The position numbers were made by a program, and so were the translations under genes. This document shows, in pieces, positions 9,768-45,808 of a stretch of DNA of 64,000 nucleotides. The notes below the pieces were generated by a model that had not been told where the DNA came from, made no database searches, and saw only the letters and a program-made list of their open reading frames with translations. The stretch comes from Allacma fusca (lineage: Eukaryota; Arthropoda; Collembola; Symphypleona; Sminthuridae), in the NCBI GenBank assembly GCA_947179485.1, contig OX359246.1, positions 32,922,001-32,986,000 of the forward strand. The letters are read 5' to 3'. Numbering within the stretch: the first letter of the stretch is position 1; every line of letters begins with the position of its first letter.

Positions 9768-12070
9768 TTACATTTCTGGTTGTAAGAGGGTACTGGCCTC
9801 AGGGGATAAAAGGGGATTCAAGTCCCCTTTCCTGAGAATGGGTGTGAAATGAAGGCAGTCTTCCGGAACGGACTGTTTTAAAATCCCTTGGAAAATAGTT
9901 CTTGGGGATACTTCTACAACTAAAGCCCTATTTGGTATATGACGTACAGCCTCGTAGAACCAGACTTGATGGAGCATGTTCCTTACAAAATATTCCCCGG
10001 AGCAGTGGGTCACATCTTTCAAATCCCAGTCCCGGGAGGGGGCTGAAGTACAGATCCATTTACTACTTCGGGGTTTCTCAATTGAAACTACCCCTTGGAG
10101 ATTCTTACGGAAGAGCACGGCGGCATCGGAGGCTAGGGGACTATGAGGGGAGCAATCGCAGGAGTCCACTACTTTAGCATAGACTCCTTGGGCCTGAAGA
10201 TCATTCACAAAATTTAGTACGGAGTCAAGTGAGCCGGAGACGGTGACATTTTTGGAGGCATTATTGCAAGCGGGATAGACATCTGGAGGGCATATGTTTT
10301 GAATCTCTTGCCAGGATAACCCAACGGCGGCCATGGCCCCTAGCACTGGACGTGCCTCTTGCATAGCCCGCCCCCTCACGTCACTAATCACAAGTACTTG
10401 CTCGGCTGTGAGGCATCCATCCGCATAGCCACAGAGTAGCTCCCCGGCGGAGTGCCCGATAAAACCACTGGGTGTCGTATTGAAAACTGACTGGAGTGTG
10501 TCGTACAGCGCCACCTGTTGATATCAAATTTTTTCATTTAATTACAAACTAGAACATACAAGTGATTACTGTCTTTACAACACATTAAAACTAATACTAA
10601 CGAGACCTTAAACCTTTTTTATTTTTGTTTTCCCTAGTTATGAGTGATAAGAGTAGAATAAGAACTGAATATTCGGAAGCAAATGTAAAACGCAAATTTT
10701 AAAGATGTAGGACGAAATTGGCCATTGATTCCCTGGTAAGATTTATGTTCAGAGATCAAGGATGATAAGAGCTATGTATGTTCAGATCAAGCTGATAAGA
10801 GCTATGTTCAGAACAAGCTGATAAGAGCTATGTTCAGATCAAGCTGATAAGAGCTATGTTCAGATCAAGCTGATAAGAGCTATGTTCAGATCAAGCTGAT
10901 AAGAGCTATGCTCAGATCAAGCTGATAAGAGCTATGTTCAGATCAACGCTGATATGAAGGATGATAAGATCTATGTTCAAAGATCAAGGATGATAAGATC
11001 TGTGTTCAAAGATCAAGGATGATAAGATCTGTGTTCACAGATCATGGATGATAAGATCTATGTGTTCACAGATCAAGGATGATAAGATCTGTGTTCACAG
11101 ATCAACGCTGATAAGATCTATGTTCACAGATCAAGGATAATACAATCTCTCTTCAGATCAAAGTCCCTCAACCATTCCCACGTTATTTTAGGTCTAATAA
11201 CGTATAGTTGATGGAGTCCAATGGAATCATACAGAGGAGAATCCTTGATTGTTTTACAATCAACCCAAAAAATGAAACCTAATTTTTTTTAACCCGGTGA
11301 ATCATCCTATAGTTTTAAAAAACTCAAGGAACTTCCTCCCCACTATGTTTCTACCACTAACTGATTCCGTACATCACGTAAACAAAATGAGTGACTCTTG
11401 CAAAAAGATTTTGAGTACTCTTAAGGAAAGTAAGAACAATTATATGAAGTGCCTATGATATCAGTATATATGTATGTACAACAATCATTTAGTATGTTAG
11501 TCTGCCTCGAGACAAGAACTGAGCAGAAACTGCCTCGAATAATTGTTTTATAATATAAGCCAAATCCACCATGTACCTGGATGGCAGCAAGGGAGACAAA
11601 AGCCGCTTGAATATCCATAAAAATCCTATCATTATTGGGCTTGATGAGTTGATCCAGATCTAATCCCAAATTCCGCATCGTCAACCTGGACTCCCTCATG
11701 GATTCCGCAAAGGGCTCAAATGAGAAGAGTTCCTTCGGGAGTGTATTCACCTGTGAGCCCAGCCCCGAGAATACAAACCATAGAGGTCGTCTCGTCTCAC
11801 TCTGGAACTCCTTAACCTTGAGGTCCTCATTAAACCTATGACTCGTGACAGGTCTGACCGAGTTGGAATTCGTAAATATTTTCCTCTGTCAAGACAAAAC
11901 ACACGAAAGGAATCAAAACAAATATACAGGATCAGTTTTCTTACAAAAGCCTCATACACACAATTATTCCTCCCTTAAATTACTCCAATAGGCAGCAGGC
12001 TAGCCCTGTGAATGGAACTTACTTCAAAGGTCCGACGCAAATCCCCAAAACTTTTTCGAATGGACTGCAT
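9768..12070 (-). CDS. Stand-alone malonyl/acetyltransferase (FASN MAT-domain) protein A
   Basis: Exons 12070-12023, 11885-11577 and 10514-9768, all phase 0, give 367 residues. An in-frame TGA lies four codons before the ATG, which supports this start. The protein is essentially one MAT domain of animal fatty acid synthase, with a short N-terminus (MQSIRKSFGDLRRTFE) and no KS, DH, ER, KR, ACP or TE. Acyltransferase residues are kept: the FSGLGSQ oxyanion region, Ser141 in GHSAGE, Arg166 (25 residues on, like the Arg that binds the malonyl carboxylate) and His243 in SPHSP. It should be able to move acetyl or malonyl groups from CoA to an ACP, acting in trans if active. No targeting signal seen. 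It is divergent to the acetyl-CoA synthetase gene at 16711. The Trp after GSQ of the local FASN is missing. It could be a duplicated FASN fragment turned gene. Confidence 0.8.
10749..11150. repeat. Minisatellite with repeated TGATAAG sites, inside intron 2 of MAT gene A
   Basis: About fourteen units of 26-35 bp, of the form TGATAAGAGCTATGTTCAGA followed by TCAAGC in the first half and GATGATAAGATCTGTGTTCA with CAGATCAAG in the second half. I count 13 copies of TGATAAG on the plus strand, one per unit, plus one more just outside at about 10645. TGATAAG fits the WGATAR binding consensus of GATA transcription factors, so the array could act as an intronic enhancer; this is inference. Confidence 0.85.
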
Positions 12071-15000: not shown

Positions 15001-16710
15001 TATAATTACGTAATATGTACATGTAAAGTTATGTCATACATTTATATAATAGAACATTCTTAATGGAATCGTGTCTCTGCAAATATTATGCTCCTCACAG
15101 TAACTACCAAATGCGAAAATAATTTACCTGTAGACATTCGCAAATATGAAATAGTCCCATATTCCAGGCTAGGTGTCAAAAACAATCAGTCAGAGCCAGG
15201 AATGCCAATGAGTGGATGATACTACTCTAGATTAGTCCCCAATAAAGAAGCATAATACAAATAATTAATTACATACCTACGTTCTCCACCCAAGTCACAA
15301 GATCCAACAATAATACCCAAGACTCATAAAGTTTAAATACTGATAAATCCACATGCCTGGGAACCACCTTCCAACCTAAGGAGTCAAATCCCGTCAAGGA
15401 ATGAGTCTGAAAAAAAACAAATGTTTCCCATCACGTGAAATGTTATTACTCACACTGTAAAACTCTTCCTAACTGACGTTCCCTGACTGATGTACAGGAT
15501 GATGCATAAAATAAATCTCTCCCCTATTCACCCTCAGGATGAAATTCATGAGCAGTACTTACAAAAAATCACAGTCCCCCAGGAGGACGGGATACTTTGT
15601 AAAAGCATGGAGTACTGTTAAATACATGGAGTCACACGCTATTCTAGAAAAATTAGATTTGTTTTTTTTTTTAAATTTCCCAGTAATGTTTTAGGAGAAA
15701 GGAAAAACCACTTATGTAAGAAGATATAGAAGAAATGGTCATAATAATTTGGATTCTACTCCCCAATCAAACAATTAAACGTAGATGTTGAACATTCGAA
15801 GGGAAATTTGTTTCATCTCTTGAATGCTGTACTGTCGGATGGGAAATAATTATTATCCCAAAAAATATGGGGAAAATCAAAGGGGAAAATTTATACAAAG
15901 TAAATCAGTACATTTTATGGACCCTACGAGATCCAAGGAACAGAAGGAAGTGTGTAAACGCTATTGGTAGTAATTATGTATACGTCGTGAGTTTTAAACC
16001 TTGGGATAATTTTTTATTTGGACCATCAAGTAATAATAATATTGTATACTAGCACAAGACAAAAAGGGAGAGGGATTCCAGAGCCATCCTGTATCCCATA
16101 TATTATTGTGGGTAAACCAATTAGCACAAGAACAATCGGAAGTTAAAGGAAACTTCGAGAAACTGGATTTCTTCACAATTGTTATACGTCAGGATTTTGC
16201 AAAATAGTGTAACTTGTGAGGTTACTACGGAGGAATCATTGTAACCAGCAAATTACAATTCTGTGGACGATTATACTCCTCCTTATCATCATCATAAACT
16301 CACATTGCCATTTGAATTGTGCCTTACGAGGGGAAGGGATAGATAGATACATATTTGAGGGAAAAGTCCCAGCCGAGAACTCAACCACCAGATCCCAGTC
16401 AGTTTCACCCCAGAGCATTTCAATTTCTCTTGTTGTTGTAGATCGGGTCTGGGAAAGTCAGAGTGAACTCCTCTAATTTCAAAAGCAGGACCCTCAAACT
16501 CTCCTCCACATGTGGGAAGAGTATCTGAAGAGATTTTAGTCCGAGTTCTTCCCATGTTATAGAATTTTCTGCCCTGTCAAAATATTATTTTATTTTATTA
16601 ATCACATACTCTTGAGTGTCACTTATACCTCTTCCTTCTTTTTTTTCAATTCAATATTTTAACAATAATTGACAAACGTGCTACATTCCTCTCACACAAC
16701 AAATATAAAA
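12071..16710. other. Large intergenic region between divergent MAT gene A and acetyl-CoA synthetase 1
   Basis: About 4.6 kb, AT-rich, holding the 5' flanks of both genes. No long conserved open frame. Only one exon-like segment is worth naming, on the minus strand at about 15285-15408, and it is listed separately. Confidence 0.5.
15285..15409 (-). other. Possible orphan exon
   Basis: On the minus strand a strong acceptor (a run of T, then CAG) is followed by about 124 open bases and a consensus donor, G|GTATGT. The frame starting at the acceptor reads THSLTGFDSLGWKVVPRHVD and continues to WVENV, more complex in composition than its surroundings. I recognise no family and cannot join it to a neighbour. 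It could be a piece of an unmapped gene, a 5' exon, or chance. Confidence 0.25.
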
Positions 16711-19700
16711 ATGGCACTTAAACTCAACAAGGAAGACAACATCGGGGGTCAAGATAATCCGGTTAGCCGGTTACGAGAAATGGTTGAGTTTAAAAAAAAA
16801 ACAAATAAACAAATAAAAAAAATCCTTTTTAAATTTTGCTAATTACTGGAATAATTAAAGTGTTAATTTGTCCTGCTTTTAAATATTTTGGGTCATTTTT
16901 TGGTTTGTTTTCACAGGCATTCAAGCCTCCTAAAAGAATTGCTAATTATGCCTATGTCCAGTCAATGGATGACTACGAGGCAATGTATGAGTTATCTGTC
17001 AATGACCCGGAGAAATTTTGGGGGCAAATTGCAGAGGAGTTTTATTTTGAGAGGGATCAACCCGAGGGGGAGCCTTTCTTTCACTATAATTTTGACATCA
17101 CTCAAGGCCCCATTTGTTTTAATATGCTCAAGGGCGCCAAAACCAACGTCTGCTACAATGTCCTGGACTGGAACATCCAACGGAGAGGGATTGGCAAAAA
17201 TATTGCCATTCACTGGTATTTATAACACATACATACATAATTATGTCTTTCCTACATGCACAGTTCCATATTTTAAGACTTTTTATTTTATTTTCATTGT
17301 ATTTTGTGTTTTCATTGTATTTTTTCTTTTCATTGTATTTTGTGTTTTCATTGTAGTTTTTATTTTCATTGTATTTGGTATTTTCATTGTATTTGGTATT
17401 TTCATTGCAATTTATATTTTATAATTTATGTGCATTGAAATAGTCAATCAGACAATTCTATTGAGTCTCCCTATTTGTAGGACGCTCTTCACATTTAATT
17501 ACCATCACCGAAACCTTTGGCAGATCTAAGTCTTCCAAATTAAAGCCCAATTTTTCAATTTCAAAGATCTGAGATAGCAATAGCAACGAACATCCATACA
17601 TTATGTAACATTATGCATACAAATTTACTCTTGCCCCAAACACGGATTCTACTGTATACAAGCGCGTTTTTCTCTCTCCCTCACCTCATGAGCTTAGGAG
17701 TTCACATCAAAATATTTTCAGTTCTATTTGCTTCTAATATTTTCCCATGGATCGTGCAAGTCTTAAAATTTAATCGCAGGTCTTCCTCAAATTTCCAGTT
17801 TCTCTGTATGCATTTGTCCTCTTGGTATTGGCCTCAAGGTTATTTCTATTTGCTCCTTGTTAAAATTGCGTATGTAAATAGATAGTACAGTATTTGCCCT
17901 TCCCCTTCTGAGAGACCCGCTGGTAAGAGCAATGTTTTCCAGTGAGGCTGTTTTTATTGTAAGAGCACCTGAAAATTTTAAAACTTTAGTGCCCTAACTA
18001 GATTCTATAAAATTATAGGAAGTTACCCACCCTTGTGGTAAATCAGAGATTATTTAAATATTATTTGAGGGGAATGCTTTTGGAGAAAATTCTCTTAGAA
18101 AGAAGATGACTGTAAATATTCCTTCCTTTTTTATTAATTTTTATGTACAATATTACAGGGAGGGCAGTGAAACGGACGATCATTGGAGCATCACCTATGA
18201 TGAGTTACTAGTTGAAGTATGTAGATTCGCTAATGCTCTCAAGTCCCTCGGGGTCAAGAAAGGGGACCGAGTTGTGGTTTACATGCCGATGATAGCGGAG
18301 ATCACAATTACCATGTTGGCTTGCGCCAGGATTGGGGCAGTTCATTCGGTTGTGGTAAGAGAGGGATTTGAATATAGCTTCTTGTAAATAGTCAGGAGTT
18401 ATAAATCCTAATAAATAATTATTACTTGAGTATTATACTTAATTAAAAAATATATTTATTCACAGTTCGGAGGCTACTCAGCTGAGTCCTTGGCTGGAAG
18501 ATTAATAGATGCGAAGGCCGTGGTAGTGGTTACAGCGGATGGGGCATTTCGAGGGGATAAAGTCATACCATTGAAGGAGATTACGGATAAGGTGAGAGTT
18601 TCTTATGTAAATATGATATAATAGAAATATTTTATCCCTAAATTCTATATTATTCCCACAGTTTATTGAATTTGACAAAAGCTTTATTCCCTCAGATTCT
18701 TGACTAAAAAATTCCTAAGAGGGAGTACAAAAGCAATTAAAATTATTTTATATCATGCAAATCTCATATTATATGCTAATATTTATTTTAATATTACTCG
18801 TATTACTTGGTTTATAATTCGAGGACACGGGATGGATCTTCGTCCGTTAAGTCATTGATGGATTTGGTGAGGTCTAAAAAAACTTTTTTTCAATATTATA
18901 GGCTATTCAATTATGCCTCGAGCAGGGTCATAATGTGGAGCATTCGATCGTCGTGGAACATTTACCAAGGCTCAAGAAATATGAATTGATGGGGAAAAAG
19001 GTTTTATACTTTTACCATAAAAAAAAAATAATTCGCACAGGGCTGACACGATGCATGTACTTTCCTGTGCTTTACAAGAATTAAAGTCAAGCCTGCCAAT
19101 TTTATCAGGATTTGTTATTGTGTTCCAGAGCTGTATTCAAGGCCCATTGGATAAGTCATACCATGATATCATTGCTAATCAGTCGGACATATGTGTTCCG
19201 GAATGGGTGGATGCTGAGGATCCCCTTTTTATCCTGTACACAAGGTATAGATACGTCTATGACATGACCTTTTTCTGCGTCGTACACGGAACTGACGATA
19301 TGGATATGTGTCATGAGACTTTTGACTATCGTCTAAGAATTTAAATATAATCTTTGCAATTAAATTTATTTGTGCAACAGTGGCTCAACTGGGAAACCCA
19401 AAGGAGTTTTGCACACCACAGCGGGGTACATGATGTATGCGGCTTTAACATTCAAAATGGTCTTTGACTACAAGCCCGGGGATGTTTTCTGGTGCACGGC
19501 GGACATTGGCTGGATTACTGGTCATACCATGATGGTGTATGGACCACTTGCTAATGGGGCCACTGTTGTCCTCGTAATAATTTTTATAGTCTATAATTCT
19601 CTTGCTCATCTTGAAATATTTTGGGATATATTGGAGAAAAACCCCTGAAGATATTTACTTGAAATTGCCTTTAACACTCCAATTTCAATGATTTCCAGTA

Positions 19701-21637
19701 CGAAGGAACGCCACTGTACCCGTCCTACACTCGGCCTTGGACTGTCATCGAGAAATACAAGATCAGCCAGATTTTCACTGCCCCTACCGTCATTCGGAGT
19801 TTGATGAAGTTTCGGAACAGTCCGATGCTTCGGTTAGCTAACTTAACTACAATTGGGTTAACAATTTAAAATTAACATTCCCACTTCAGCAAATACTAAT
19901 ACAGTATGTAGGTCCACAGGGTTTGTCAATTTGAAGATTCTCCATGGTATGAAGGAGCAAATCCAGCTTAAAAGAAGGGCTTTGCCTCTAGTTGGATATC
20001 ATCTGACAATGAATATTTCTTGGAATTTTTTTTTTATTGAATGTTACATTTTACAAAACGGAAGTATTTCAATTCTTTTCAATGATTTCTTTTCTCGATT
20101 TGCTCGAAGGGCATTGTTGATTGTTAACCATGCTTGCTCATTAGATTGTTAACAACTAAATGCTCAAAATCATAACATTCAAATTGACCAATCCTAATAG
20201 TTATTACTGTTCCTCATGTGAGACACAAACTGAACTGCGCATGTATTCTTTGATTTCATAGGCATGATATCTCCTCTCTCAAGGTCCTTGGAACAGCTGG
20301 TGAGCGAAGTTTCCGATTAAATTAAAAGCTGCTTCAATAATTACAATAGTATAGATACATTATGTAGGAAATTATGAAGGAACAAAAAACTTGATTATAT
20401 TAGAAATTGGCTAAAAATAAAACAAATATTTTGGTATTTAAGGGGAACCCATTAACCCAGAGGCATGGCTATGGTATTTTCAAACCTTGGGGGGTACGAA
20501 ATGTCCAATTGTAGACACTTACTGGCAAACAGAAACAGGCGGACCTTGCATCACACCATTGCCAGGGGCCACGCCCACTAAACCCGGTTCAGCTGTAGGT
20601 TTATAGCATTTAAATAATAAATTTATTATTGGTGGATAATGCCTAGTCTTAAAACTATGTATGTATATTTACTTCAATATTTTAAAATTTGCAGACATTC
20701 CCATTTTTCGGAATAGTTCCAGAACTTTTGGATGAGGATGGTCATGTTGTTGAAGGTGAGGGGGAAGGATATTTAGTTTTCAAACAAGCCTGGCCCGGTA
20801 TGATGAGAACAGTTTATGGAGATCATGCACGTTTTGAAGAAACGTATTTCCGAAGATTCCCCGGTTATTACTATACCGGTGATGGTAAATCAAACTTTGA
20901 CAATTAAAACTCGAATTAAACTTCACAATTAGAAATGTATGTTTTTAGTCATTTGAAGAAATATTTCAAGTTGATTCTTTCTTGATTTCAGGGGCAAAAA
21001 GAGATAGCGATGGGTACATCTGGATCACGGGCAGAGTCGATGACATGCTCAACGTTTCTGGTCATTTACTTAGCACAGCACAAGTTGAGGCAGCCATTTT
21101 AGAACACAAATGTAAGGAACCATCCTAATAAATATGACATTAATATTGGTAAAATAACACAAAATATTTTTACTATAAAGTAATTGTATAATTACTTGAA
21201 CTGTGGTTTTATTCGTGCAATTAGGTGTATCGGAAGCTGCAGCAGTACCTATTGAGCATCCTGTAAAAGGAGAAGCACTCTACTGCTTCGTTGTTCTGAA
21301 TGAAGGCCTGGAAATGAATAAATCTATAATCGGAGAGATCAACGATAAAGGTTTGGGAAATTCATAGATAATGGCAAAGCTACTTTGAATTATTGGAACA
21401 AGTATGAAAATTTGCAAATCAATTTGATTGGTTTTATTTTTAGTGCGAGATAAAATAGGCCCCATTGCCACACCTGAGAAGATCCATTTGGCACAAGGCT
21501 TGCCCAAAACTAGATCGGGGAAAATTATGCGGAGAATCCTGCGTAAAATTGCAGCTGGCGAAACTGATTTCGGGGATATTTCTACTCTTGCTGATGAATC
21601 TGTCTTAGCTGCTCTTATAAAGCCCGCGAAGCAATAA
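16711..21637 (+). CDS. Acetyl-CoA synthetase 1 (ACSS2-like, AMP-forming)
   Basis: Fourteen exons: 16711-16782, 16917-17215, 18159-18354, 18466-18591, 18902-19000, 19129-19244, 19381-19573, 19699-19832, 20262-20299, 20443-20594, 20695-20884, 20992-21111, 21225-21350, 21444-21637. Together 2055 nt, 684 residues, close to the usual 650-700. The enzyme makes acetyl-CoA from acetate, ATP and CoA through acetyl-AMP. Visible motifs are the P-loop-like [12 protein letters not shown] (about 301-312), [10 protein letters not shown] in exon 10, TGDG in exon 11, [15 protein letters not shown] in exon 12, and the catalytic Lys (about 647) in [11 protein letters not shown]. No clear mitochondrial leader, so probably cytosolic. 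The donor after exon 5 (GTTTTA) is weak. An AATAAA overlaps the stop codon. It forms a divergent pair with MAT gene A. Confidence 0.92.
17277..17410. repeat. 18-bp tandem repeat in intron 2 of acetyl-CoA synthetase 1
   Basis: About eight imperfect copies of a unit like TTTTCATTGTATTTTGTG. T-rich and intronic; it causes a misleading open frame across the exon end. Confidence 0.75.
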
Positions 21638-22509: not shown

Positions 22510-22886
22510 TTGAGACACATCCCTCAAATTCCAGTTACTTTGCTTGGCTGAAGTACAGACCCACTTATGACTGCGGGCTTTCTCATTTGGAACCACCCCT
22601 TCCAGATATTTTCGAAAGAGGTTACCTGCTGGTAACGCCAGAGGGCTATGTGGGGAATAGTTTCAGGAGTCTACCAATTTGGCGAAGATCCCTTTTCTTT
22701 GAAGTTCTTCTACAAAGGTGAGTACAGGGCCAAGGGATCCGGAAACCGTTACATTTTCAGCGGCGTTATTGCACGCTGCGTAAACATTGTCTGGACACTG
22801 ATTCTGTAAATCATTCCAAGACATTCCTACGGCTGCCATGGCTCCTTGTTCCAACCGTCCTTCATGCATGGCCCGACCTCTCATGT
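22510..22886 (-). pseudogene. Truncated MAT-domain pseudogene
   Basis: Nearly identical to bases 29345-29728 of MAT gene B exon 3. It keeps codons from about MRGRAMHEGR down to NWNLRDVS, but lacks the active-site GHSAGE part and the last 75 or so residues. A TGA replaces the Cys codon in VDSCNYSPHS, so the frame is broken just before the catalytic His. Its 5' side stops exactly at the outer edge of the large inverted-repeat element at 22885. The high similarity points to a recent copy of gene B rather than an old relic. Confidence 0.85.
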
Positions 22887-23191: not shown

Positions 23192-23269
23192 TACTAATTC
23201 CAGTATATGTATTAGGTTAATATACATATATGTAAGAGCATTATATCCACTACAGGCCTCAATAGCAGG

Positions 23270-25758: not shown

Positions 25759-25829
25759 AATGATAAATGCAAGCAGTATCTAAATACCCACATTACATTG
25801 TTAATTGCAATCCTCAATTAATTAATTTT

Positions 25830-29112: not shown

Positions 29113-30364
29113 TTAAAATGCAGAAATTAGACGAGAACAACCCTCAGAAGACAATATAGGATTTAATGTACCATCTCGGAGAACGGGTACGAAATTGGTA
29201 CAATCCTTTGGAACCGTCTGTTTTAAAACTCCTTGAAATATGCTCTTCGGGGAGACTTCCACAACCACAGCGTTATTTGGTATGTGAAGGGTTGCTTCGT
29301 AGAACCAAACCGGTTCCAGAAAGTTCCTTACAAAATACTCCTCTGAGCAATGTGACACATCCCTCAAATTCCAGTTACTTTCCTTGGCTGAAGTACAGAC
29401 CCACTTATGACTGCGGGCTTTCTCATTTGGAACCACCCCTTCCAGATATTTTCGAAAGAGGTTACCTGCTGGTATCGCCAGAGGGCTATGTGGGGAATAA
29501 TTACAGGAGTCTACCAATTTGGCGAAGATCCCTTTTCTTTGAAGTTCTTCTACAAAGCTGAGTACAGGGCCAAGGGATCCGGAAACCGTTACATTTTCAG
29601 CGGCGTTATTGCACGCTGCGTAAACATTGTCTGGACACTGATTCTGTAAAACATTCCAAGACATTCCTACGGCTGCCATGGCTCCTTGTTCCAAACGTCC
29701 TTCATGCATGGCCCGACCTCTCATGTCGCTGATGACAAGCACTTGCTCTGCAGTGAGACATCCGTCAGCATAGCCACATAACACTTCACCAGCGGAGTGT
29801 CCAATGAAGCCGCTAGGTTCCGTGACGAACGTGGCCCGGAGTGTTTCATAAAGTGCCAGCTAAAGGGATGGTTTTAGTGTAAATAAATAATTTTTAATTC
29901 ATAAGTTTGTAATGTTATATCAGGCACCTGGAGTGATGAAGAGCATGCAAAAGCGGAACGAATATCCTTAAAAATTAAGTCGTTGCTCCTCCTCAGAAGT
30001 GGATCCAAGTCGATTCCCAGGTTCCGTAGCGTCACTCTTGACTCTTGTATGGAATTTCCGAAGGGCTCGAAGGACCATAATTCCTTCGGAACCTCATTAC
30101 ACTGTGAGCCCAGGCCTGAGAATACAAACCATAGAGGGCGTCTTCTATCTTGGATTTTGATCGACAACCTGTCGATGCCGATGTCCCGAGTAAGACTAGC
30201 ACCAGATTGGACTGAGCTACCGAAAAATGTCTTTCGTAGTTGACCCTTCGAATCCAATTTCATAATTTTTAATTACTAATTCATGTATATAATCAAATAA
30301 AATTTGATATTCTCACTTGAAATGTTGTTCGGAGACCCGTGAAACGATTTCGTGCCGACTGCAT
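29113..30364 (-). CDS. Stand-alone malonyl/acetyltransferase (FASN MAT-domain) protein B
   Basis: Exons 30364-30317, 30245-29928 and 29859-29113, all phase 0, give 370 residues. Exons 1 and 3 have exactly the lengths of those in gene A (48 and 747 bases). The N-terminus MQSARNRFTGLRTTFQ matches gene A. Active residues are Ser144 in GHSAGE, Arg169 and His246 in SPHSP. Like A, it contains only the MAT domain, so any activity must act on an ACP supplied by another protein, for example the neighbouring FASN. The acceptor before exon 2 (TTCGAAG) is pyrimidine-poor, so that junction is less sure. It sits head to head with acetyl-CoA synthetase 2, about 2 kb apart, repeating the arrangement of gene A and synthetase 1. 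Confidence 0.8.
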
Positions 30365-32323: not shown

Positions 32324-35300
32324 ATCATCCCCGTCATATCTGAAATGGTAAGGACGAGGAAAAATCCCGGTCAATTCTTTTAAGGATCCTTTCACCCAAT
32401 TTATGTTCATTTATAATTTATTTTATTTTATCTAATTTTTATTTTGAAATGATTTCCAGACTTACCAACCTCCAAAAAGGATTTCCGACAGTGCTCATGT
32501 CAAATCTATGGAAGACTATGAGGCCATGTATAAATTATCAGTGGCAGATCCGGAGGCATTTTGGGGCCAGATTTCAAAAGAATTTCATTTCCAACAAGAC
32601 CAGCCAAGAAATGAACCATTTTTTGAGTACAATTTTGATGTTAATAAAGGCCCAATTAGTATTAATATGCTCAAGGGGGCAAAAACTAACGCCTGCTATA
32701 ATGCGCTGGATTGGAGCATTCAACGGAGAGGAATTGGCCAGAATATAGCTTATCATTGGTATTGTCCAGGTTTTTTTTTTCAAATAACAATTTTTTGGTA
32801 ATTAACTATTTCTGCAAAGGAAAATATAGGTGATGGTATTTTGTTGTACGTCCTTTTTTTTATTAGCGGAAATAATTATTAGTATTTACACTTGGTGATC
32901 AAGCGTGGATATTTTATTTCACGCTTGTAAGGATATGGTATGATTTTGGTCAATACATTTTTATATGCACATAATGCCTTTGGAATTTTCAAGGGAAGGG
33001 AGTGAGGCCGATGATAAAGGGAGCATTACCTACGATGACCTACTGAGGGAAGTTTGCAGGTTTTCGAATGCACTCAAGTCCCTTGGAGTCAAAAAGGGTG
33101 ACAGGGTTGTGATTTATATGCCGGTCATAGTGGAAATAACTGTGGCGCTCTTGGCTTGTGCGAGGATAGGAGTTGTACATTCAGTTGTGGTAAAGTTAGA
33201 ATTTTAAATTATTCAAGTGCGTAGCATAGTGAGCCAAACGTTGAGGTTCTGTACTCGAACAAAAAAGTTGTAAAGCATGGGAATTTATTGCTTTTTTAAT
33301 TTATGAAGGTTACGAGAACATTTATGTAAGTTTCTCGCAGATTCATCTGAAAAATCCTGTCATTCCTGACATTAATTTATTATAATGAAAACTTTTCTCA
33401 GGCCGTAATTTAACTAAATAGTTAATAAAACCAGTAATGTCCAACTTCAAGTTGGATTGTATGAGTAATGTTTTTACAATGAAATTTCCAGTGGCAAAAA
33501 TATTGATTTTTACTCACGGATAACTACCTTAGGGCTGAAATCGTGCTAGCTCTGAGTCGACATTTATGACTGTGTTTACGTTATGTACCCTCTAACTTAA
33601 TTATACTGCACCATAAACAAAATAGCCATTTCACAGTAATTACTCATTCTAGTCATTATTGTATTTTATTTGGGGCTTGCGCTGACGAACCAGAGTTTTT
33701 TGAACATTTCTGTACATTTCAGTTTGGAGGCTACTCTGCTGAGTCAGTGGCTAATAGGATTTTGGACGCCCAGGCTCGTGTGGTTATTACGGCGGATGGG
33801 ACGTGTCGAGGAGATAAGATCATACCATTGAAAGGAATTACTGATAAGGTATATATGTATATGACACATATGTTGATAATTATACAATATCTGAACTTAT
33901 TGTTAGTGCTGGGAATGTTCGGGTCTGTTCAAAGATATCGGGTCTATGGTCTGAACCTTATGCAGGAATGGTCCTTATGGCTATTTCAAAATATACGAAC
34001 AGATTCATTGGTCCCTTATACCTTTGGAACATATACCCTTTGATTGATGACCCTATGGTTGGGAAAATTCCCAGCACAAATCTGAACAAGCATCAATAAT
34101 TATTTCAGAATAATGTAATCCCCACATTCCCCACATTAAAAGCAATGATTTCAGAAAATAATCCAAAACCCACACTCAAACTATAAAGCGCATTAATACT
34201 CATTCCAATTTTTTTTACCTAGTTTCTTAAATCCCTGTAGTTTTTATTAGCTACTCTAAAATTTAAGCTAGTTTTTTAAGCATTTAGTCAATAATCCAGA
34301 ATACAAGGGATAGTCGCAAGTTATTTTATTATTGTCTTTTTCCCACGCCTTTTTTGACTCATCCCATGAACTATAATTTTCCATCCACAATAATTTTTTT
34401 TAATGATTCGAAAATGTGACTGAAGTAATAAAATCTAATCCTTATCAAAATTCTTATAGGCGATTGAATTATGCAACGAGCAGGGACATAAAGTCGAGCA
34501 TACAATTGTGGTGGAGCATTTTCCAAGGCTAAAGAAGTTTGCTGTAAGAAAGGAAAAGGTATGAAAACTTTTATAATTTATATCCCAAATTTTCAAGGAC
34601 TTTCTTCCTAGTGCAATTAATTCCTGGGAGTTTTACAGTAATTGACAGAAATATTAACCATAGACTTAATCTTATCCTTCAATTAGAACTATGATCAAGG
34701 TCCGTTAGACAGATTGTATCATGATATTATTGCCAATCAGCCTGACACTTGTGAGCCAGAGTGGATGGATGCTGAAGATCCTCTATTCATATTGTACACA
34801 AGGTATAATAATTAATTATTACTACATGGGGTAGTTCCTGCTGGATGGTTTTAATTAATTTATGGTTAATAATTGTTTTGTTACAATCACTTGAATATTC
34901 CAGCGGGTCCACAGGAAAGCCCAAAGGAGTTGTTCACACCACTGGTGGTTACATGATATATGCCGCTCTGACATTTAAACTCATCTTTGATTACCAGCCT
35001 GGGGATGTGTTCTGGTGTACTGCGGACATTGGCTGGCTCACTGGTCACACCATGATGGTATACGGACCCTTGATTACTGGTGCCACCTGTGTTCTTGTGA
35101 GTCATTTTAATAGTATATGTCAAATGTAGTTGCATATGCACATAAGAGGTGTCAGCTTATATCAACAGTTACTCTTGCATTAATGTTTAATTTTCACAAA
35201 ACGTTTTGTACATTATAGTTTGAAGGAATGCCGCTATACCCTTGTTATACTAGGGTTTGGGAAATCATTGAAAAATACAAGGTCAGCCAGTTGTTCTTGG

Positions 35301-37462
35301 CCCCGACGATTATCCGAAGTTTGATGAAATTCAAAGCCAATACTACACTTCCGTTAGTTACTTTTTAAAAAATTTAAAGTAAACACGAAACTACCTTCAG
35401 AATTTAATTCAAGAAGATTTTAAAATAGTAATCAAGAGGCTTGTGTGTTTGATTGTGCGCAGATACGATATTTCTTCTCTGAAAGTTTTAGGAACAGCAG
35501 GTGAGAAATCTGTAATAATTTATGGTAGTAAATATATGAGAGCAGGTACTCCGGAATGTTTAAGCAAGTGTGGGAGGGGTCACATTTTTACTTTTAAGGA
35601 CAAGCCTAGTTTAAATATATGTAAGTTGTGCTGAACAATTTTAATTCCAGGATTTTATGAAGAATTCCCTAACAGATATAAAAATGTGTACATTAGCAAG
35701 CATAATCAGGTCTAGGCCAACACTTAAGATCACAGCAGTCAAACTAAAGAAGTAAAGACGGGAACTTTTATTCCTGTATTTTAGGTTCAAAACTTTTCAA
35801 AAAATAAAATTCAGGACTGTTATACATCTTTTCCAGAACAAATCCAATTTTAATTGCAATTGTTGCACTGATGTGATCGAAAAAATAAGGGGGCTGCAAA
35901 CATTTCCAGCACTTCTGGTGCTTTGCTTAAATGGAACAAATCTTTGGCACAAAACTTGTGCATGCATATGTGTTTTGCCAAACACACGATTCCATGATTG
36001 AGTTTTTAGCTATTATAATTTTCTTGAGTTGAGATCCTATAAAGAAATGTTTACGGTTTTTATGATTAGTAATAAGTTAAGCCTGTAAAATTATTCAAAA
36101 ATATTTTATTCCTTAAAAGTGGGGGCGACATTTGAACAGATTGTATCTTCTTTATTTTTCATTTGGGGGTGACAATCTTCGCTCATTTCGGAGTGCCTGT
36201 ATGAGAAAACAAAGGTGTTTAATGAATACTTGCTGCTAATCCAATTGAAACTAATTACGTCACTTTTTCAAATAAGGGGAGCCCATTAACCGAGAGGCTT
36301 GGCTCTGGTACTTGGAAGTAATGGGCAATAACCAGTGTGCCGTTGTGGATACTTACTGGCAAACGGAGACAGGTGGACCTTGCATTACACCATTGCCTGG
36401 AGCTACACCTACCAGACCTGGCTCAGCCGTATGTTTAACTTGTTCCTTTGCATCTAAAAAAAATTACACAATTATTTAAATAATTTTATGAACATGTTTG
36501 AACGTTTTTTCACATTTCCTTCTCAGACATTCCCATTTTTCGGTGTGGTCCCAGTACTTTTAGACGAGACAGGTCGTGTGATTGAAGGGGAGGGAGAAGG
36601 ATATTTGGTGTACAAACAACCATGGCCTGGTCTGATGCGAACGATTTATGGGGACCATGAACGCTTTGAAGAAACCTATTTTCATAAATTCCCCGGCTAT
36701 TATTACACTGGAGATGGTCAGTTTTTGTTCCAAGGAGACTCAATCAGAGAGAGGGACCACTCAAAGACAATTTTGCAAATTTAATTTACAATTCTTATGC
36801 ATTATTTCAGGGGCTACCAGAGACCGTGATGGGTACATTTGGATCACCGGCAGGGTGGACGATACGCTCAATGTATCTGGCCATTTACTCAGCACGGTTC
36901 AAGTTGAGTCGGCCATATTGGAACATAAATGTAAAAATGAATTCAAATTTAATTTGAAAGTCAAGCAATATCTACAAAAAATATTATTCATTAAATAAAT
37001 TGATAGTATCTGATGAAATTAATAAATTCTTTTTAGCTGTGTCAGAGGCAGCTGTAGTCCCAGTTGACCACGTTATAAAAGGACAAGCTCTCTACTGTTT
37101 TGTGGTTGTAAATGATGGTGTAGAATCTAACAGGTCTTTAATGGCGGAAATTTCGGACAAAGGTTTGAAACGAATGATTTAGGGGATTTCTTAAAATAAA
37201 TATAATAATTATTGGAGGGTAGTGACGACGGTTCATGTTGGAATAATAATGTGTGTTTGTGTTCATAGTGAGAAACAAAATAGGCCCGATTGCCAGTCCG
37301 GAGAAAATCCATTTTGCGCAAGCCTTGCCAAAGACCAGGTCGGGTAAGGTCATGCGCAGGCTCCTTCGTAAAATTGCTATTGGAGAAACTGATTTCGGAG
37401 ATATTTCCACCCTTGCTGATGAGTCCGTCATAGGCCTTCTTCTTGAGAGGCCAAGAGCTTAA
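32324..37462 (+). CDS. Acetyl-CoA synthetase 2 (ACSS2-like, AMP-forming; start not located)
   Basis: Exons: 32324-32347 (partial first), 32460-32758, 32994-33189, 33723-33848, 34460-34558, 34687-34802, 34904-35096, 35219-35352, 35463-35500, 36277-36428, 36527-36716, 36811-36930, 37037-37162, 37269-37462. From 32460 on, all thirteen exon lengths and phases equal those of synthetase 1. The motifs are present: [32 protein letters not shown] and the catalytic Lys in [11 protein letters not shown]. The short exon at 32324 corresponds to the end of exon 1 of the twin (both end in EM) but is preceded by an acceptor, so an upstream exon with the ATG is missing from my model. Exons 3 and 10 use AAG acceptors. 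An AATAAA lies at 37587. Function as for the twin: acetate activation for lipid synthesis or acetylation. Confidence 0.9.
33311..33712 (+). repeat. Dispersed repeat Y, copy 2
   Basis: Lies in intron 3 of acetyl-CoA synthetase 2, ending just before exon 4. Direct copy of 27230-27600. Confidence 0.75.
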
Positions 37463-38033: not shown

Positions 38034-41000
38034 TCATCGCATCAGAGTAAGGATCATGCTAGGGATTCCAAGTTCGAGTGGGTTCTCATGGAAGCAGTGG
38101 TGATGCCCATCGACTTCTATGACCTCTACCTTGTTACTGCAGTACTAAAAAAAGTAGAGTATTCGTAATCATTACCACAAAGCATCATCACAAAAATATG
38201 GTCCATCAAGATTCTCGACTAATTTAACAGCAAAAGTTTCATATGAAAAATATATGTTAAGGGGCTTATTGTAGTACATAATATATGTTCTTCCAATACA
38301 CGCGCAATATTTATTACATAAGCGGTCATGTATTATTATTTACAACGAAATGACCCCCACAAAGATTTTAGTTATAGCTAGATTTTTACTAAAGTTATAC
38401 TAAATTTGAGCCTCAAGACATACACATGCTGTATAACTGTTAATAAAATATTCTCACCTCCGGCAAGCCATAATCATTTCCCAAGGACTTGTCAAACCCA
38501 CCTCGAAGCGTCTTTATCAAAACAGTCCTGCTCCTGACCTTATTGGTTGGCTCATAGCTATATCCTATCTTCAACCTCCCCGCAAAAGAAATAGCCATGC
38601 ACATTATTTCCTGAATCTCAAAATTAACGTAAACTTCTGCAAGCTTTTTGGCAGTGAACAAAAGCTTGTCGTCAAAGCTACTGAGTTCGTTTAATTCTTT
38701 TTCAAAAATCCCCGGATCCGCTAAGGTCATATGCAGCATCATGAAATACATTAGCCAGCTGGTCTCATCGTTTTTGACACCTTTCTCGATAAAATTCTTG
38801 GTAAAAAATGCCTGCCATTTTGGGCAGCCATCAAGTAGCAATAATATGGATACTTCGGAACTTTCCCGCTCTAGCTGCACCGCCATCTCAAAAGCGACGG
38901 CGCTTCCGAAAGAATAACCAGCCAATTTGTACGGACCGTGTGGTTGGACTTTGCGGATCTGGTCGATATAAAAGGACGCTAATGCCTCCATAGAATTGAG
39001 CGGTGCTTCTGGTACACATTGCAATCCAAACACATTCAATCCTTCCATATAACTGACGAGTCTTTCCAGGAGGAATAAGGTGCCATCTATCGGATGGACA
39101 ATAAAAATTGTATCTTCGGGGGTTGCATTGCAATTATTTGATTTCATTTTTATTATCGATTCCCGCGGCATAGCTTGCAACGGAAACGGTTGGGTGGAGC
39201 TCAAATTTAATCTTCCAGTGTTGACCACTCCTTCATTTTGAAGATTAAGTAGTGTTTCAAAAGTCAACTGACCGTAGGCATTGATTGGGAGGAGAAGACT
39301 CATCCTGGAATCTAACACTTGTTTGATTTCCGTTGCCATGAGAGAATCCATGCCAAGTTCGGTTAATGTAGCTTTCGGATTCAATTTCGACACATCCTTG
39401 ATTGCAAGAACATGAGCGACGGCAGTGATAAGGGAATCCTTCAAATCAATGGAAGTAACTTTGCTCTCAGCATCCAAAACCAGGGATGAAACTACGGTTC
39501 TACTTTCTTGCAGTAGTGTGTCCAAAGTTTGGAGCCACGAGTGCATCCTTTGAGGAGCCAGTCCACCAAATATTACATCGCCCTTAGCACTTAGAACTTC
39601 GGAGACAATACCAACATCACCGATCGGACCCCACTGAATAGCTAGCGCAGGTAACTCATCAGCCCGACGCTGCTCGCAGACACGCTCCATGAAGGAGTTT
39701 GCGTATCCGTAGTTGGTCTGACCTGCATTTCCTCTTGCGGCCACAATGCTTGAGAATACCACAAAATAATCAAGTTGTGGTGAGAGGCCTCTTGAAGCAT
39801 GATCCATTTCAACTGTTGCTTCTACTTTTGATTTACATGTTTCCTCGAAAGTACGAACGGTTTGGTTTTCAAAAAGGGCATCGTTTAAAACCACTGATAC
39901 ATTAAAGATTCCACCGATGGGTCCATAAGAACAAGCGGCTTTAATCAGGCTCGCAGCACCCTCCTTGGTAGAGACGTTCGTCTGATCCAAGATAACATTG
40001 ACTCCACCCTGTTTGAGTATCCCAATACGGTATTCTTGATAAGTGGTTTTCACTCCTGAGCGAGAATTTAAAACCAAATGATGAGCACCTCGTTGCATCA
40101 TCCAATGGGCTATTTCAAGGCCCATGCCGCCCAATCCCCCAATAAGAATATATACTTTGCTGGGGTAGAAGTACGTACGAGGGAGCGCTGGAATATACTG
40201 GAGATCCTCCATGTTTACCAAAACTTTGCCAATATGCTTTCCTGTAGCCATAAACCTAAAAGCCTCCTCAAGTTGATCACTCCTGAAAGAAGTGTATGGC
40301 AAGGGATTTATTAATCCAGATGCGATACCATCTTTTACTAGCTTTACAAGTTGTAACTTTTCTTCGGACTCGCTTTGCATAACTTCATCAAGTAATATCC
40401 CTTGAATATTGACGCTCTTCAATAGGACGGACAGGCCTAATTTAGAATTATTGAATAAATCAAATTTCCCAATCTCAAGGAACCTTCCATATTTTCCTAG
40501 ACACCTGATTGAAGCTTGTAGTTTATCTTGGGCTAGGCAGTTCAAAACAATATCCACTCCTTTGCCATTAGTACCCTCACGGACACACTTTTCAAAATTT
40601 TGAGCGTCTCTCGAATCTGCAATATTTTCTGACCTCAGGGTTGGAAATCGTGTTTTCAAAAACTCTCGCTTTTCCACAGAACCAACGGTGGTGAAAACTG
40701 TGCAGTTCATATGGAGCGCCAAAGTTATTGCTGCTTGGCCTACACCTCCTGATCCTGCGTGGATTAGAACGGTCTCCCCTGACTTCAGGCCTCCTCTTAT
40801 AAGTAGAGCGTAGTAAGCAGTTGCGTACACCACTGGGACCGTTGCTGCTTGTGCTAAGCTCCAGCCTTCCGGTACATCCCATAGTAAGGACGAGTCTGGT
40901 TTTACACTTGTTGCTAGACATTTTGCGGTATGGAGTCCACAAACCTTCTTTGATTTATAGATTCCCGAGAATTCCAGTCCCAGTATGCAATCTTCAAAGG

Positions 41001-44000
41001 CAGAGTCACCAGGAAGAGCATCTCTTGTTAGTTTCCCAGTTGCTAACATTATGTCTCGAAAGTTTAACGAGGCATAATGGATTCGACATAATTCTTTCTT
41101 CTCTAACTTTAATGGACTTTCAATCCAACGGACACTTGATAAATCTCCGGTGACTAAAGCATCAGCATAGGCTTCTGTAGTTGGTCTTGGTTTTGTCAAA
41201 GTTTCGTTTGGGATTGCAAAGTTTCCATAACAGCCCCATTCATTGTTTTTTCTCACGTTGAACACCAGATCAAATTTGAGCTGCTCCGATGCATCCTCAA
41301 AATTGAAATCTTTGTCGTCAATGGAATATACGCAACGAACATTCTCATAGCCATGCTCCGCGATTAGACATTTAACCAGACCCAGTATGCCTGAAGTAAC
41401 TTTTGATGTAAGAATTATTCGTTCATTCTGATGTGTTCTCGATTTTAAAGCGTATTTAAAATCCTTTAACCAAGCAAATGCTCCAGCATCCATTGAAATA
41501 AACGTTTGCTTTAAAGATGTGTTTGGAACTTTCCGAAAGAGGGCGTACATGCCTTGTTGAGTTTGTTTTTGTGAAACTAAAACCAAGTCTTCGTTACCAG
41601 TGGTGGGCACTTCGCCTTTGTATATTAAGAATCCACAGTTCTGTATCATGCCTACGTTAAGACCTTTGTCTGTGTCCGTAAAAATTAAATTTGAAAATTT
41701 AAGCTCCTGTAATTCCTCAAGAGTGATTATCTTGGATCTGATTTGTGATTGTATAACTTCCTGTGACATTGGAACAAGGCGTAGATCAGGAGACGAAAAT
41801 TTTGGTGGACAAAGATTTGTAACGATGGTGAATATAGTTTGGCATGATTCGGTCAACATCTCGGTCAAAGTAAATTCACGGCCAAAAGTATTATCAATTG
41901 CTATTCCTACAAAGAACTCAATAACTTCATGCACTGAAGTAAGTCTCCCCGGCTGTTCAACATAAGGCTTGAATAAATGTTCTGTAAAAATCGCGTTTGA
42001 ACTCAATGATCTTCTTGCAGCAAGAGAAACCTTCATTCCACGAAACTCCACTCCTGGACATTGAGTGACCTCCAAATTATTCGAGTATTGAATTTGTATG
42101 GAAGCAGAATTTTCCGTAACGACGTTTTTAACCCTTGCAGGATCAATTGTTACTTTCTCCAAACGAATGGGAAGATAAAGCCCTCTCCTTGTAGATCTTA
42201 CTATTCCAGTTTGGAGAATCGCATCCAAAAATGTAACCCAATTTTCATTCCAGTTAACTTCCGCCCAGTCGCCATTTGTCCCAATGGAGCTCACGCCTTG
42301 AAAAACTTCGGAGTATTCGTATCCTCTTAGGCGCAGGTCTTTGTAGAAGCTTTGCTTATCCAAATACGCATCCTTTTGTAATTGTTTTGACCCCAGTTTA
42401 AATACTTCAAGATCATAATTCCCCTCCATCATTCTGATTGATCCACGACAAACAGCCCCACTATTCTCGAGAACTTCGAATTCTCCGTTGTCCAACAAAA
42501 TGCTTACAATGAAACTAACTGGAGCATTATAGTTCAGTACAGTGCTACGTTCAAATCTTAGATTTTCCAGTACTACTGGAAGCTCTTCGAAATTGACTCC
42601 TTGTTGTTTCGAAAATGCTTTCCAAACTAGCCAAATGTAGCCCGTGGCTGGAAATACAATTCGTCCATCAATTGTATGACCGGTAAAGAAAGAATCCATT
42701 TCGCTTGATAGGTCTATACTGAATTTAGTTCCTCCAGCTTTTGAGAGTTCATTTTTGATGTTAGGGACATCCCACGAAAGACTGTGATCCCACTTTATCA
42801 TTGAACTTATCATTGGTGTTGATGGGTCAACAGGAAAGTTAACAGGTTCGTACAGTGATCCAACTTCGAAGTTAACTCCTAATTGGTACAATTTTCCCAG
42901 AGATTTCAAAAAATTCACTGAATTATCTACGGCATACTTGTTCATGAGTCCAAGCTTTGTCGTTAAAGGGGCCAAACCTTGTTTCAGAATAGTTTGCATA
43001 AAACAGTGTGGTCCAATTTCCAGAACAATTGCATTATTCGGAATGTGTTTCAATGTAGCATAAAAATATACAGGAGATAAAGCATTGTTTACGTGGTAAT
43101 CTACAGAGGAGTATTTTGCCAGGTCGGAGTCCCACAAATTGTCCGGGATTGACGAACTTAGCCACTTGGTTGACCTCGGTTTTGGGTCTTGAATTACTTT
43201 CCCTAAAAGTTCCCGCATTATTTTTTCAGATCCGGCAACATAAGGTGAATGGAATCCATAAACAGCGGATTTAACCTCTCTAGCAAATGTCCCTTCGGCT
43301 TCCAGTTTTTGTAAAAATTCTCGAACCTTTTCCGGAGGACCGGATATTGTTACGTTATCTTTTGAGTTATGAATTGCTGGGTAAATTCCTTCAGGACACC
43401 TTCTCAAGGATTCCTCCCATGAAAGTCCCACAGCAGCAACGGTGCCTGGCGGCAAGTCCGATTCCAGAAAGGCCCTGGCTCTACCTAACGATACCAAAAC
43501 AGCTTGCTCATGCGTAAAGCATCCGTCAGCGTAAGCACTTGCACACTCCCCGGTTGAGTGCCCAACTATGCCATCAGGATGTATTCCCAAGGAACTTAAC
43601 AAATCCACTAAAGCGATTTGAATGGAGGTGATGGAAACAATTGAGTTCTTCAGATTTTCCAGTATTTCTGTGTCTTCTGTCTCTAAAACCTTGAGTAAGT
43701 CAAATCCGTTTTCCAGAAGTATCTGCGAAGATTTCAGTATCGAATCATGAAAAGTTTTAAAGGACATCATATCTTTGGACATTCCCACCCATTGACTTCC
43801 AAGGCCCGTGAAAATAAACCAAATCGGTCGTCTTGCATGGTTCAAACAGTTGTGAATCTGAATTTCTGGCTCCGACTCAGACAAAATTCCGTACCCTCTG
43901 TAAGGATGTCGAGATATATTTGTTTTGAAGGTAGCGTGCGTCAGGGCTATTAGGTTAAGATTCTCCCCATGATACCTGATTTGATTCAGGTGGTACTCAA

Positions 44001-45808
44001 CAGCTTCAGACGTCCGTCCTGATGCCAGTAATAAAATTGGTATCCGGGGTTTATGAAACATGGGAAGTTCTTTGGGAGTGAGCTTTAAAAGAATGTGTAC
44101 GTTGGTGCCCCCAAAACCAAATGAACTAAGAGCAGCGTATCTCCCACTAAATGGAGTATTTTCAGTAACTACTTTCAAACGTCCGTCCAGCAAACCAGGG
44201 ATGTCTTGGTTAGGATGTTTAAAATGAAGATTAGCCGGAAGAAGACCGAAGCGATGTGATAAGAGTATTTTTGCTAGACCGGCCATTCCTAAATAATTAA
44301 AAATGTTAATATGGTTTTTCATCTAACTAACAATATATTTACTTTAAAACCAATCATCTGAGTCATGAAGCTAATTAAGTATTTACAGAATGGTCCTTCG
44401 AGCGAAATTTGGGAAATGAAATTTAAACTCAAAATAATTAATCACCTGAGGCAACCTCAGCATGCCCCATGTTAGTCTTCACAGAGCCAATAAGCAGAGG
44501 TCCCTGGCGTCCCTCGCAGAAAACATTAGCCAGGGCATTGACTTCTTGAGGGTCCCCTGCCTTGGTACCCGTGCCATGTGCCTCAACATAGTCAATCTCC
44601 AGTGGACTGACCCCACATTCAGCATACACTTCCCTTATGAGCTGCTCCTGCAATTCTCCAGAAGGAAAAGTGATCCCTTGCTCCTTGTACCCATCACTGT
44701 TGCACTTTGCATGAACCAGTGTGGCATAGCTTCGCTTCGCTACCTCCTTTTTACATATAAACAACACTACTGCTGCCTCCGAGCGGACGTAACCGTTTCC
44801 ACTTGAATCAAAAGCCTTGCACATTCCTTCCGGGGAGGTGAGCTCCAAACCCTTAAACATAACTGACGTAAATGGGCAGAGAGCTATTTGAACCCCGGAC
44901 ACAACAGCTGAGTCACACTGACCACTTCGGAGAGCAACGAGCGCATTTTGTAGCGCTAGGGAGCTTGCGGAGCAGGAACTGTCAATGGCGTAGCTTGGAC
45001 CGTGAAAGTCAAACGCGAAAGATATTCGGTTTGCTAACATGGATATTGGTGTGCCAAGACTGGCGTAACAATTGGGGTTTTCAGATGAGCGTTTCCAAAT
45101 GGACAAAGCTTCCTCGCCGGCAGCGCCCACAAATACACCGGTCTTCGAACCACGGAGCTCGGTTGGATTAACGCCCGCATCCAATAGAGCTTCATGTGTC
45201 AGTTCCAGTACAAATCCTTATTAAAAATGCATACAAATTCATGCATTAAATCCCATATAGTACCATAAAATCACGTTTTAAAATAATCATAGACAAAATA
45301 TTACATACGTAACCTCGGGTCCATTACATCCGCTTGCTTTCCGTGTACACCGAAAAAATCCGCATCAAACTTATCCAAGTTCTCTAGTTTACCAGCTCTT
45401 CTGGGTACATTAAATGAGTTCAAATCCCATCTTTGGTCATTTTCTAAAGTCAACACTTGGCCAATATTAATTACAAGGTTTTGCTAGCATGAGTACATGT
45501 TAATTATATTGTTTGTAATTTAAAATTATTTTAACCATATGTACAACACGAAAACTTTCCAAAATTGATTTCGTCACCTAATTTTTGAACAATCGGTAAA
45601 ATCACAAGCAGTTACAGAAATTTAAGACCAAAACGTCCTAATTTAAGCAAAATTATTACAGGTATTACTCAAAAACTCAAATATTTACTGCACCTGAAAC
45701 CATATCTTTTCCTTCGACGAGATTCTGCCAAAATTCATCCAAGTTCCGGGAATTCGGGAACCTCCCAGCAATCCCACTGATGATAAATTCTTGTTCAAAA
45801 TTTTCCAT
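38034..45808 (-). CDS. FASN: Type I fatty acid synthase, full length
   Basis: Exons 45808-45694, 45443-45309, 45216-44446, 44288-38458 and 38144-38034 give 6963 nt, 2320 residues, a little short of the usual 2,400-2,500. Domains in order: KS with Cys165, His297, His335; MAT with Ser585 in GHSTGE, Arg610, His687; DH with His878 in HTIDGRIVFP; ER with HAGSGGVGQ near 1516; KR with GGLGGMG near 1722 and NYGYANS near 1869; ACP with GMDSL, whose Ser (about 1988) takes phosphopantetheine; TE with GYSFGS (Ser about 2133) and a His cluster near 2299 in the last exon. All active residues are present, so it should make palmitate from acetyl-CoA, malonyl-CoA and NADPH in the cytosol. Most of it, from the KS end to TE, is one 5.8 kb exon. 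The last exon uses TTTTTTTAG|TAC; a nearby CAG would give an early stop. Confidence 0.95.

Follow-up and report, generated by a model that had tools for sequence, protein, structure and literature searches.

Gene content of the locus

The close linkage of genes for stand-alone malonyl/acyl transferases (MATs), AMP-forming acetyl-CoA synthetases (ACSs) and a fatty acid synthase (FAS) raises the question of whether this part of the Allacma fusca genome holds a functional lipogenic cluster or genes that are merely neighbours. In the window, i.e., the whole stretch of 64,000 nucleotides that was analysed, gene models and domain matches bear out the predicted order MAT-A(-) ACS1(+) psiMAT(-) MAT-B(-) ACS2(+) FASN(-), including strands and domains. 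The original prediction spoke of seven loci, but six are named; they lie within 36 kb, and the gene models are intact at all of them except psiMAT.

MAT-A, exons 12070-12023, 11885-11577 and 10514-9768, minus strand: stand-alone FAS-type malonyl/acyl transferase; 3 exons, 367 aa, spliced open frame
MAT-A exon 1, 12023..12070, minus strand: basic N-terminus, possibly presequence-like (mitochondrial); net +5 with 2 acidic residues in residues 1-30
ACS1, 16780..21637, plus strand: 661-aa AMP-forming acetyl-CoA synthetase encoded in 14 exons
psiMAT, 22511..22886, minus strand: fragment of MAT-B exon 3; 97.9% identity over 376 bp, one in-frame TGA
MAT-B, exons 30364-30317, 30230 (or 30245)-29928 and 29859-29113, minus strand: stand-alone FAS-type MAT; 3 exons, spliced model
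MAT-B exon 1, 30317..30364, minus strand: basic N-terminus without acidic residues
ACS2, 32345..37462, plus strand: 661-aa AMP-forming acetyl-CoA synthetase encoded in 14 exons, its introns placed as in ACS1
FASN, 38034..45808, minus strand: animal-type FAS-like megasynthase; ATG at 45808; exons were joined by hand with approximate borders, the main one running from about 44289 to 38457 and the last from about 38132 to 38034

Both transferases match Acyl_transf_1 (MAT-A, 189 bits, residues 52-336; MAT-B, 167 bits, residues 50-335), and their first exons are equal in length and phase. MAT-B is 365 aa long, or 370 aa with the alternative acceptor, and the PDB match of MAT-A is animal FAS (E 3.2e-68). 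The flanks of psiMAT show no homology to MAT-B. FASN had been called complete, which is accurate: KS, MAT, DH, pseudo-KR, ER, KR, ACP and TE were all matched, once joined, the N-terminal exons and the TE end align to the KS and the TE of human FAS, respectively.

ACS1 and ACS2 each contain the Pfam domains ACAS_N, AMP-binding and AMP-binding_C and pass the TIGR02188 equivalog cut-off of 725 (872 and 862 bits, respectively). This is an equivalog-level match to the AMP-forming acetyl-CoA synthetase (ACSS2/Acs), from which no difference was seen other than their being tandem duplicates, 75.6% identical to each other. A genome search with the ACS1 protein, in which 57/57 candidates were scored and which replaced a TIGR02188 search that scored 9/125, found two further ACS-like loci (on C9, and at 0.99 Mb on C10, which is chromosome 3), both distant from the stand-alone MATs identified.

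Duplication of the MAT/ACS pair

The proposal that a MAT and a synthetase were duplicated together in divergent orientation holds up. In the alignment of nine stand-alone MATs, MAT-A and MAT-B are each other's closest relatives (100/98), and ACS1 and ACS2 are sisters relative to the C9 gene (0.997); because both form sister pairs among the paralogs compared, duplication of the pair as a unit is the simplest reading. For both the MATs (dN/dS 0.16, dS 1.9) and the synthetases (dN/dS 0.094, dS 1.6), the low dN/dS and near-saturated dS indicate that the pairs are constrained and old. A shared duplication breakpoint, also proposed, cannot be shown, since a blastn comparison of positions 9001-17000 with 28901-32400 returned coding similarity only, with no non-coding similarity between the two pairs. 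The cluster is best explained as an old tandem duplication of one MAT(-)/ACS(+) divergent pair, next to a gene from a large FAS-like family.

By a rough calculation assuming uniform placement, the chance of finding any of four ACS loci no more than 5 kb from a stand-alone MAT is 0.1%, and this improbability leaves room for a functional link. The corresponding rough chance that any of three ACS loci is located 30 kb or less from a KS is 3%. Stretches no more than 30 kb from a counted KS make up 1.0% of the genome, which makes it only mildly unlikely for an ACS to lie next to a FAS.

Descent and residues of the stand-alone MATs

Ten stand-alone MAT loci were found in the genome, of which nine were aligned; MAT-F was left out, as no exon 2 was found for it. 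In a tree of 21 rows, from which L002 (same scores as L001), L036 and L037 (not entered), L039 (motif not found) and MAT-F were omitted, the stand-alone MATs form a clade (100/100) on the FAS side, and FabD/MCAT proteins form a separate clade (100/100). This placement sets them outside FabD/MCAT, and the sequences show that an animal FAS MAT domain was the ancestor of the stand-alone MATs. A search for bacterial or viral relatives in viral contigs (37 pattern matches) and genome contigs (61) confirmed none.

The Ser-His dyad (S581, H683) and the motif Gln are retained in 9/9 aligned copies, while R606 and N738 are retained in MAT-A, MAT-B and MAT-C (3/9) and both absent from the six copies on C10. 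Position 553 is F, L or M, not Gln (FAS-type state). In these residues and in overall sequence the closest known counterpart is the MAT domain of animal type I FAS. Unlike that domain, the stand-alone MATs are free-standing, have an N-terminal extension of their own, lack the KS linker and the later domains, and carry Pro in place of F682 in all nine aligned copies. With mitochondrial MCAT and bacterial FabD they presumably share a reaction (acyl-CoA to free ACP) and possibly a compartment, but they differ in clade and in their FAS-type residues. Discrete acyltransferases of bacterial trans-AT polyketide synthases are free-standing ATs; the springtail MATs resemble them in this by description, but no class of AT-less partners was seen in the genome.

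N-terminal extensions and mitochondrial fatty acid synthesis genes

Residues 1-30 of the stand-alone MATs have a net charge of +2 to +5 with 0-2 acidic residues, as against a mean of -0.28 for 95 control 30-mers. We scored presequences by simple charge and helical-moment features only, and took a net charge of at least +4 with at most 2 acidic residues as the criterion. It selects 4/9 MATs (6/9 with an alternative start or acceptor; several MAT start codons are guesses) and 6% of the controls, and it misses the MCAT positive control (+3). Helical moments do not clearly separate the MATs from ACS1, except for MAT-A, and no presequence was seen in the ACS1 and ACS2 models. The extensions are basic, which hints, weakly, at mitochondrial presequences.

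Only one FabD-type MCAT was found (240 bits against human MCAT). Its catalytic Ser is replaced by Gly, the human AGFSVGE reading AGFGVGE here, with a GGG codon that could not become a Ser codon by fewer than two base changes; the human FPGQGSQ reads FPGDGTQ. This MCAT is probably catalytically inactive, and springtails or arthropods as a whole may share the Ser change. The mitochondrial ketosynthase (OXSM) was sought by a six-frame, exon-by-exon search of one assembly, with no positive-control animal genome; protein queries were used in place of a fabF model that had scored 68/94 candidates. Neither E. coli FabF (74 rows) nor human OXSM (73 rows) revealed such a ketosynthase, with 77/77 candidates scored for each: every row lay within 2 kb of a KS row with a MAT and had at most 35% identity. 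Two ACP-type gene matches were found, one just above the cut-off along with its neighbours and one below it. Nearly all animals are generally regarded as carrying out mitochondrial fatty acid synthesis.

Interpretation of the locus

We favour, at a probability of roughly 0.45, the reading that the stand-alone MATs are mitochondrial acyl-CoA:ACP acyltransferases of FAS descent whose ACS and FASN neighbours are largely coincidental. The basic N-terminal presequence would direct import into mitochondria, where the Ser-His dyad would transfer acyl groups from CoA onto the mitochondrial ACP. MAT-A, MAT-B and MAT-C retain the malonyl-binding Arg, and the C10 copies lacking it may use another substrate, perhaps neutral acyl groups. 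According to one study (PMC6954729), R606 of the FAS MAT holds the extender carboxyl, octanoyl transfer is possible for this domain, and the R606A change abolished octanoyl transfer in the murine enzyme and conferred it on the rat enzyme; given the murine result, a MAT without R606 need not prefer neutral acyl groups. The loss of the catalytic Ser from the FabD-type MCAT would have vacated a function that the MATs fill, and MCAT would be retained for mitoribosome assembly, human MCAT being described as an assembly factor of the mtSSU (PMC9892005). The adjacent ACS and FASN genes most likely encode cytosolic enzymes that have no joint role. If the MATs do act in mitochondria, a megasynthase domain would have escaped to a new compartment.

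A related but doubtful possibility is that de novo mitochondrial fatty acid synthesis has been lost, with imported FAS-derived MATs salvaging acyl groups from CoA to ACP and MCAT serving only as a ribosome-assembly factor. A Ser-less MCAT, no visible OXSM and free FAS-type MATs would together split the catalytic role of MCAT from its role in ribosome assembly.

That the locus is a functional lipogenic cluster, as originally predicted, with cytosolic MATs acting in trans on the adjacent FASN or on other FAS-like synthases and ACS giving acetyl-CoA, we consider unlikely. The tight linkage, the intact MAT active-site residues, the maintenance of the MAT-ACS pair through duplication under purifying selection, and the improbable MAT-ACS adjacency fit this idea. 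FASN and ACS2, however, converge tail-to-tail, and the genome-wide count of KS loci, with FASN among them, stands at 78 (144/173 candidates scored; 49/132 KS rows, all in model positions 1-91 and representing separate first exons, were omitted from the count). A MAT lies in cis in 79/83 KS rows, which also speaks against a trans-AT system with AT-less partner synthases; the remaining four rows, found close to FAS clusters at three sites, resemble fragments. Regions scanned around the other stand-alone MATs found contain no ACS match, and the N-termini differ, those of the MATs looking, weakly, mitochondrial.

Another reading, equally improbable, places the stand-alone MATs outside the two fatty acid pathways: as general acyltransferases or as hydrolases of acyl-CoA, they would have been amplified together with the FAS-like family to serve specialised lipids. 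The change of F682 to Pro and the loss of R606 and N738 in the C10 copies suggest altered specificity, and 78 KS loci point to lipid specialisation; against this stand the basic extensions, the conserved Gln, Ser and His, and the R606 kept in MAT-A, MAT-B and MAT-C. Finally, psiMAT has decayed to a fragment, the MAT-J frame stops early and no exon 2 is visible for MAT-F, but the constraint on MAT-A and MAT-B at near-saturated dS and the catalytic residues kept in nine copies make it very improbable that the MATs are non-functional relics of FAS duplication, placed here by pure coincidence.

Among the titles and abstract starts listed in one open library for the terms used, none concerned free-standing MATs of FAS type, an expansion of FAS in springtails or a Ser-less MCAT. 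A large arthropod family related to FAS is a feature shared with the animal FAS-like polyketide synthases (AFPKs; PMC10764717). In the MAT tree, with eight genome copies, the window FASN groups with L008 (99/97), and the copy that sits with human FAS (92/90) is L001, located on C5. A MAT row at C1:78003089 has no KS near it and has other FAS domains present; one at C8:55098071, with no KS within 6 kb, might be an eleventh stand-alone MAT.

Genes of the window and duplication of the MAT/ACS pair

Pfam and tblastn searches bore out every locus position of the original prediction, which spoke of seven lipogenic loci and listed six. The loci and other features of the window, C8:32922001-32986000, are as follows.

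MAT-A (-) and MAT-B (-): stand-alone FAS-type malonyl/acyl transferases, each with Acyl_transf_1
ACS1 (+) and ACS2 (+): AMP-forming acetyl-CoA synthetases, each with three ACS domains
psiMAT (-): 376 bp duplicate of a portion of MAT-B exon 3, containing a TGA
45808 to near 38034 (-): FASN, a FAS-like megasynthase with domains spanning KS to TE
about 763-870 and 4595-4684: near-identical peptides, suggesting tandem genes; the second copy has no Pfam match
5942-6733: TPR-repeat open frame matching a nephrocystin-3 TPR model below cut-off
7850-8599 (-): exon of a trypsin-like protease
10737-11142: 26 and 29 bp tandem repeats in the second intron of MAT-A
25293-26146: between MAT-B and psiMAT, a 41 bp tandem repeat forming two arrays

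Spliced models of MAT-A, MAT-B, ACS1 and ACS2 are intact, and the domains of all four were confirmed in full-length checks. Both synthetases pass the acetate-CoA ligase equivalog cut-off and have 14 exons at identical positions, and in the present models their N-termini carry no presequence. The hand-joined ends of FASN align with the KS and TE of human FAS, the TE alignment extending into a short last exon.

The claim that a MAT and a synthetase were duplicated as a unit is upheld by the sister pairings on both sides: MAT-A with MAT-B (support 100/98 among nine aligned stand-alone MATs), and ACS1 with ACS2 relative to a synthetase on contig C9 (support 0.997). ACS1 and ACS2 are 75.6% identical, versus 67.8% and 66.0% to the C9 gene, whose sequence was joined from tblastn matches. 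The dS values are concordant, yet near saturation (1.9 for the MATs, 1.6 for the synthetases), with dN/dS of 0.16 and 0.094, respectively; the MAT-ACS intergenic gaps are 4,709 and 1,980 bp. Most simply, these comparisons would reflect a single ancient duplication of the divergent pair.

Is the arrangement a pathway cluster?

The original prediction read the arrangement as a lipogenic gene cluster with a possible joint function. Its genes and their paired duplication are real, but the pathway inference is unneeded and some of the evidence counts against it. Across the genome (392.74 Mb, 91 contigs) we counted 96 Acyl_transf_1 matches and at least 132 KS matches (144 of 173 candidates scored); 83 of the latter were used, the 49 omitted matching model positions 1-91 only. 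The 83 fall into 78 FAS-type loci, chiefly on contigs C1 and C8, a very large FAS/AFPK-like expansion within a single animal genome. A MAT lies within 6 kb downstream in 79 of the 83; the remaining four lie close to FAS clusters at three sites and resemble fragments. Window FASN belongs to the 78 loci and stands apart from human FAS in the tree, and L001 on contig C5 groups with human FAS. Two FAS copies with equal scores, one of them L001, lie 215 kb apart (C5:53668193-53670465 and C5:53883460-53885732).

ACS-like loci comprise the window pair, the C9 gene and a more distant one at 0.99 Mb of contig C10, with weaker matches (identity at most 30%) elsewhere; none was found near the other stand-alone MATs in the regions scanned (L024-L043). 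The chance under uniform placement is about 0.1% for a MAT next to an ACS and about 3% for an ACS in the neighbourhood of a FAS; a single placement with later duplication suffices for the arrangement.

A family of stand-alone MATs

Not counting psiMAT, stand-alone MATs occupy ten loci on two contigs, presumably chromosomes 2 (C8) and 3 (C10).

C8: MAT-A, MAT-B, MAT-C
C10: MAT-D to MAT-H; MAT-I, MAT-J

MAT-E (L026) and MAT-F (L027) have identical exon-3 translations, suggesting either a recent duplication or an assembly copy, and no exon 2 is visible in MAT-F. MAT-J has an early stop, and the MAT-I model joins pieces 10 kb apart. At C8:55098071 there is also a MAT match with no KS within 6 kb, which may represent either a disrupted FAS or an additional stand-alone MAT.

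The alignment comprised nine stand-alone MATs, eight FAS-type MATs from the same genome (including that of window FASN), human FAS, partial E. coli FabD, human MCAT and the springtail MCAT. In the tree, the nine group in a single clade (100/100) placed on the side of FAS. All nine retain Ser581, His683 and the Gln of GxGxQ, and all have Pro for Phe682. Arg606 and Asn738, the latter of which we take to be functional as well, are present in MAT-A, MAT-B and MAT-C and both absent from the other six; L038, a FAS locus, likewise lacks Arg606 and Phe682. Roles are assigned to S581, H683, R606 and F682 in PMC6954729, where R606A loses octanoyl transfer in the murine enzyme and gains it in the rat enzyme; because these effects are opposite, the substrate of the C10 copies is not readable from the residues.

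A possible mitochondrial compartment and partners

The stronger finding is the combination, in one animal, of a FAS-derived free MAT family, an MCAT without its nucleophile and a mitochondrial ketosynthase that was not found. We give the reading of the stand-alone MATs as mitochondrial acyltransferases slightly less than an even chance (about 0.45). Each has 49-83 residues before the MAT core, and the first 30 residues contain zero to two acids and have a net charge between +2 and +5, against a mean of -0.28 for 95 internal-Met control 30-mers (MCAT, +3; ACS1, -1; ACS2, 0). A strict presequence rule (net charge at least +4, at most two acids) is passed by four of nine MATs, by six with alternative starts or acceptor, and by 6% of controls; MCAT fails it. 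The helical moment is clearly high only in MAT-A (0.61; other MATs 0.29 to 0.50, ACS1 0.36). Charge and moment are suggestive of mitochondrial presequences, short of proof.

The only FabD-type gene found was MCAT (L035, C12:21742779-21743699; 240 bits against human MCAT), in which the nucleophile Ser is Gly (GGG) and the Gln of FPGQGSQ is Asp. A single sequencing error is excluded for the Gly, since every Ser codon differs from GGG by two or more bases. Human MCAT has a role in mitoribosome small-subunit assembly, according to PMC9892005, and such a role would explain retention of a Ser-less MCAT.

Genome-wide searches with E. coli FabF and human OXSM (77 of 77 candidates scored for each) found no mitochondrial ketosynthase: the 74 and 73 matches, respectively, have at most 35% identity, and all of them are located no more than 2 kb from a KS match having a MAT. 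Two ACP-type matches were obtained, one marginally above the cut-off and one under it. A full salvage scenario, in which imported MATs would charge mitochondrial ACP with ready-made acyl groups after loss of de novo synthesis, we consider unlikely. At C8:55921476-55923740, a KS is followed by a MAT and the FabF/OXSM match reaches the C-terminal end at 31-35% identity; this gene may be of PKS type instead of FAS.
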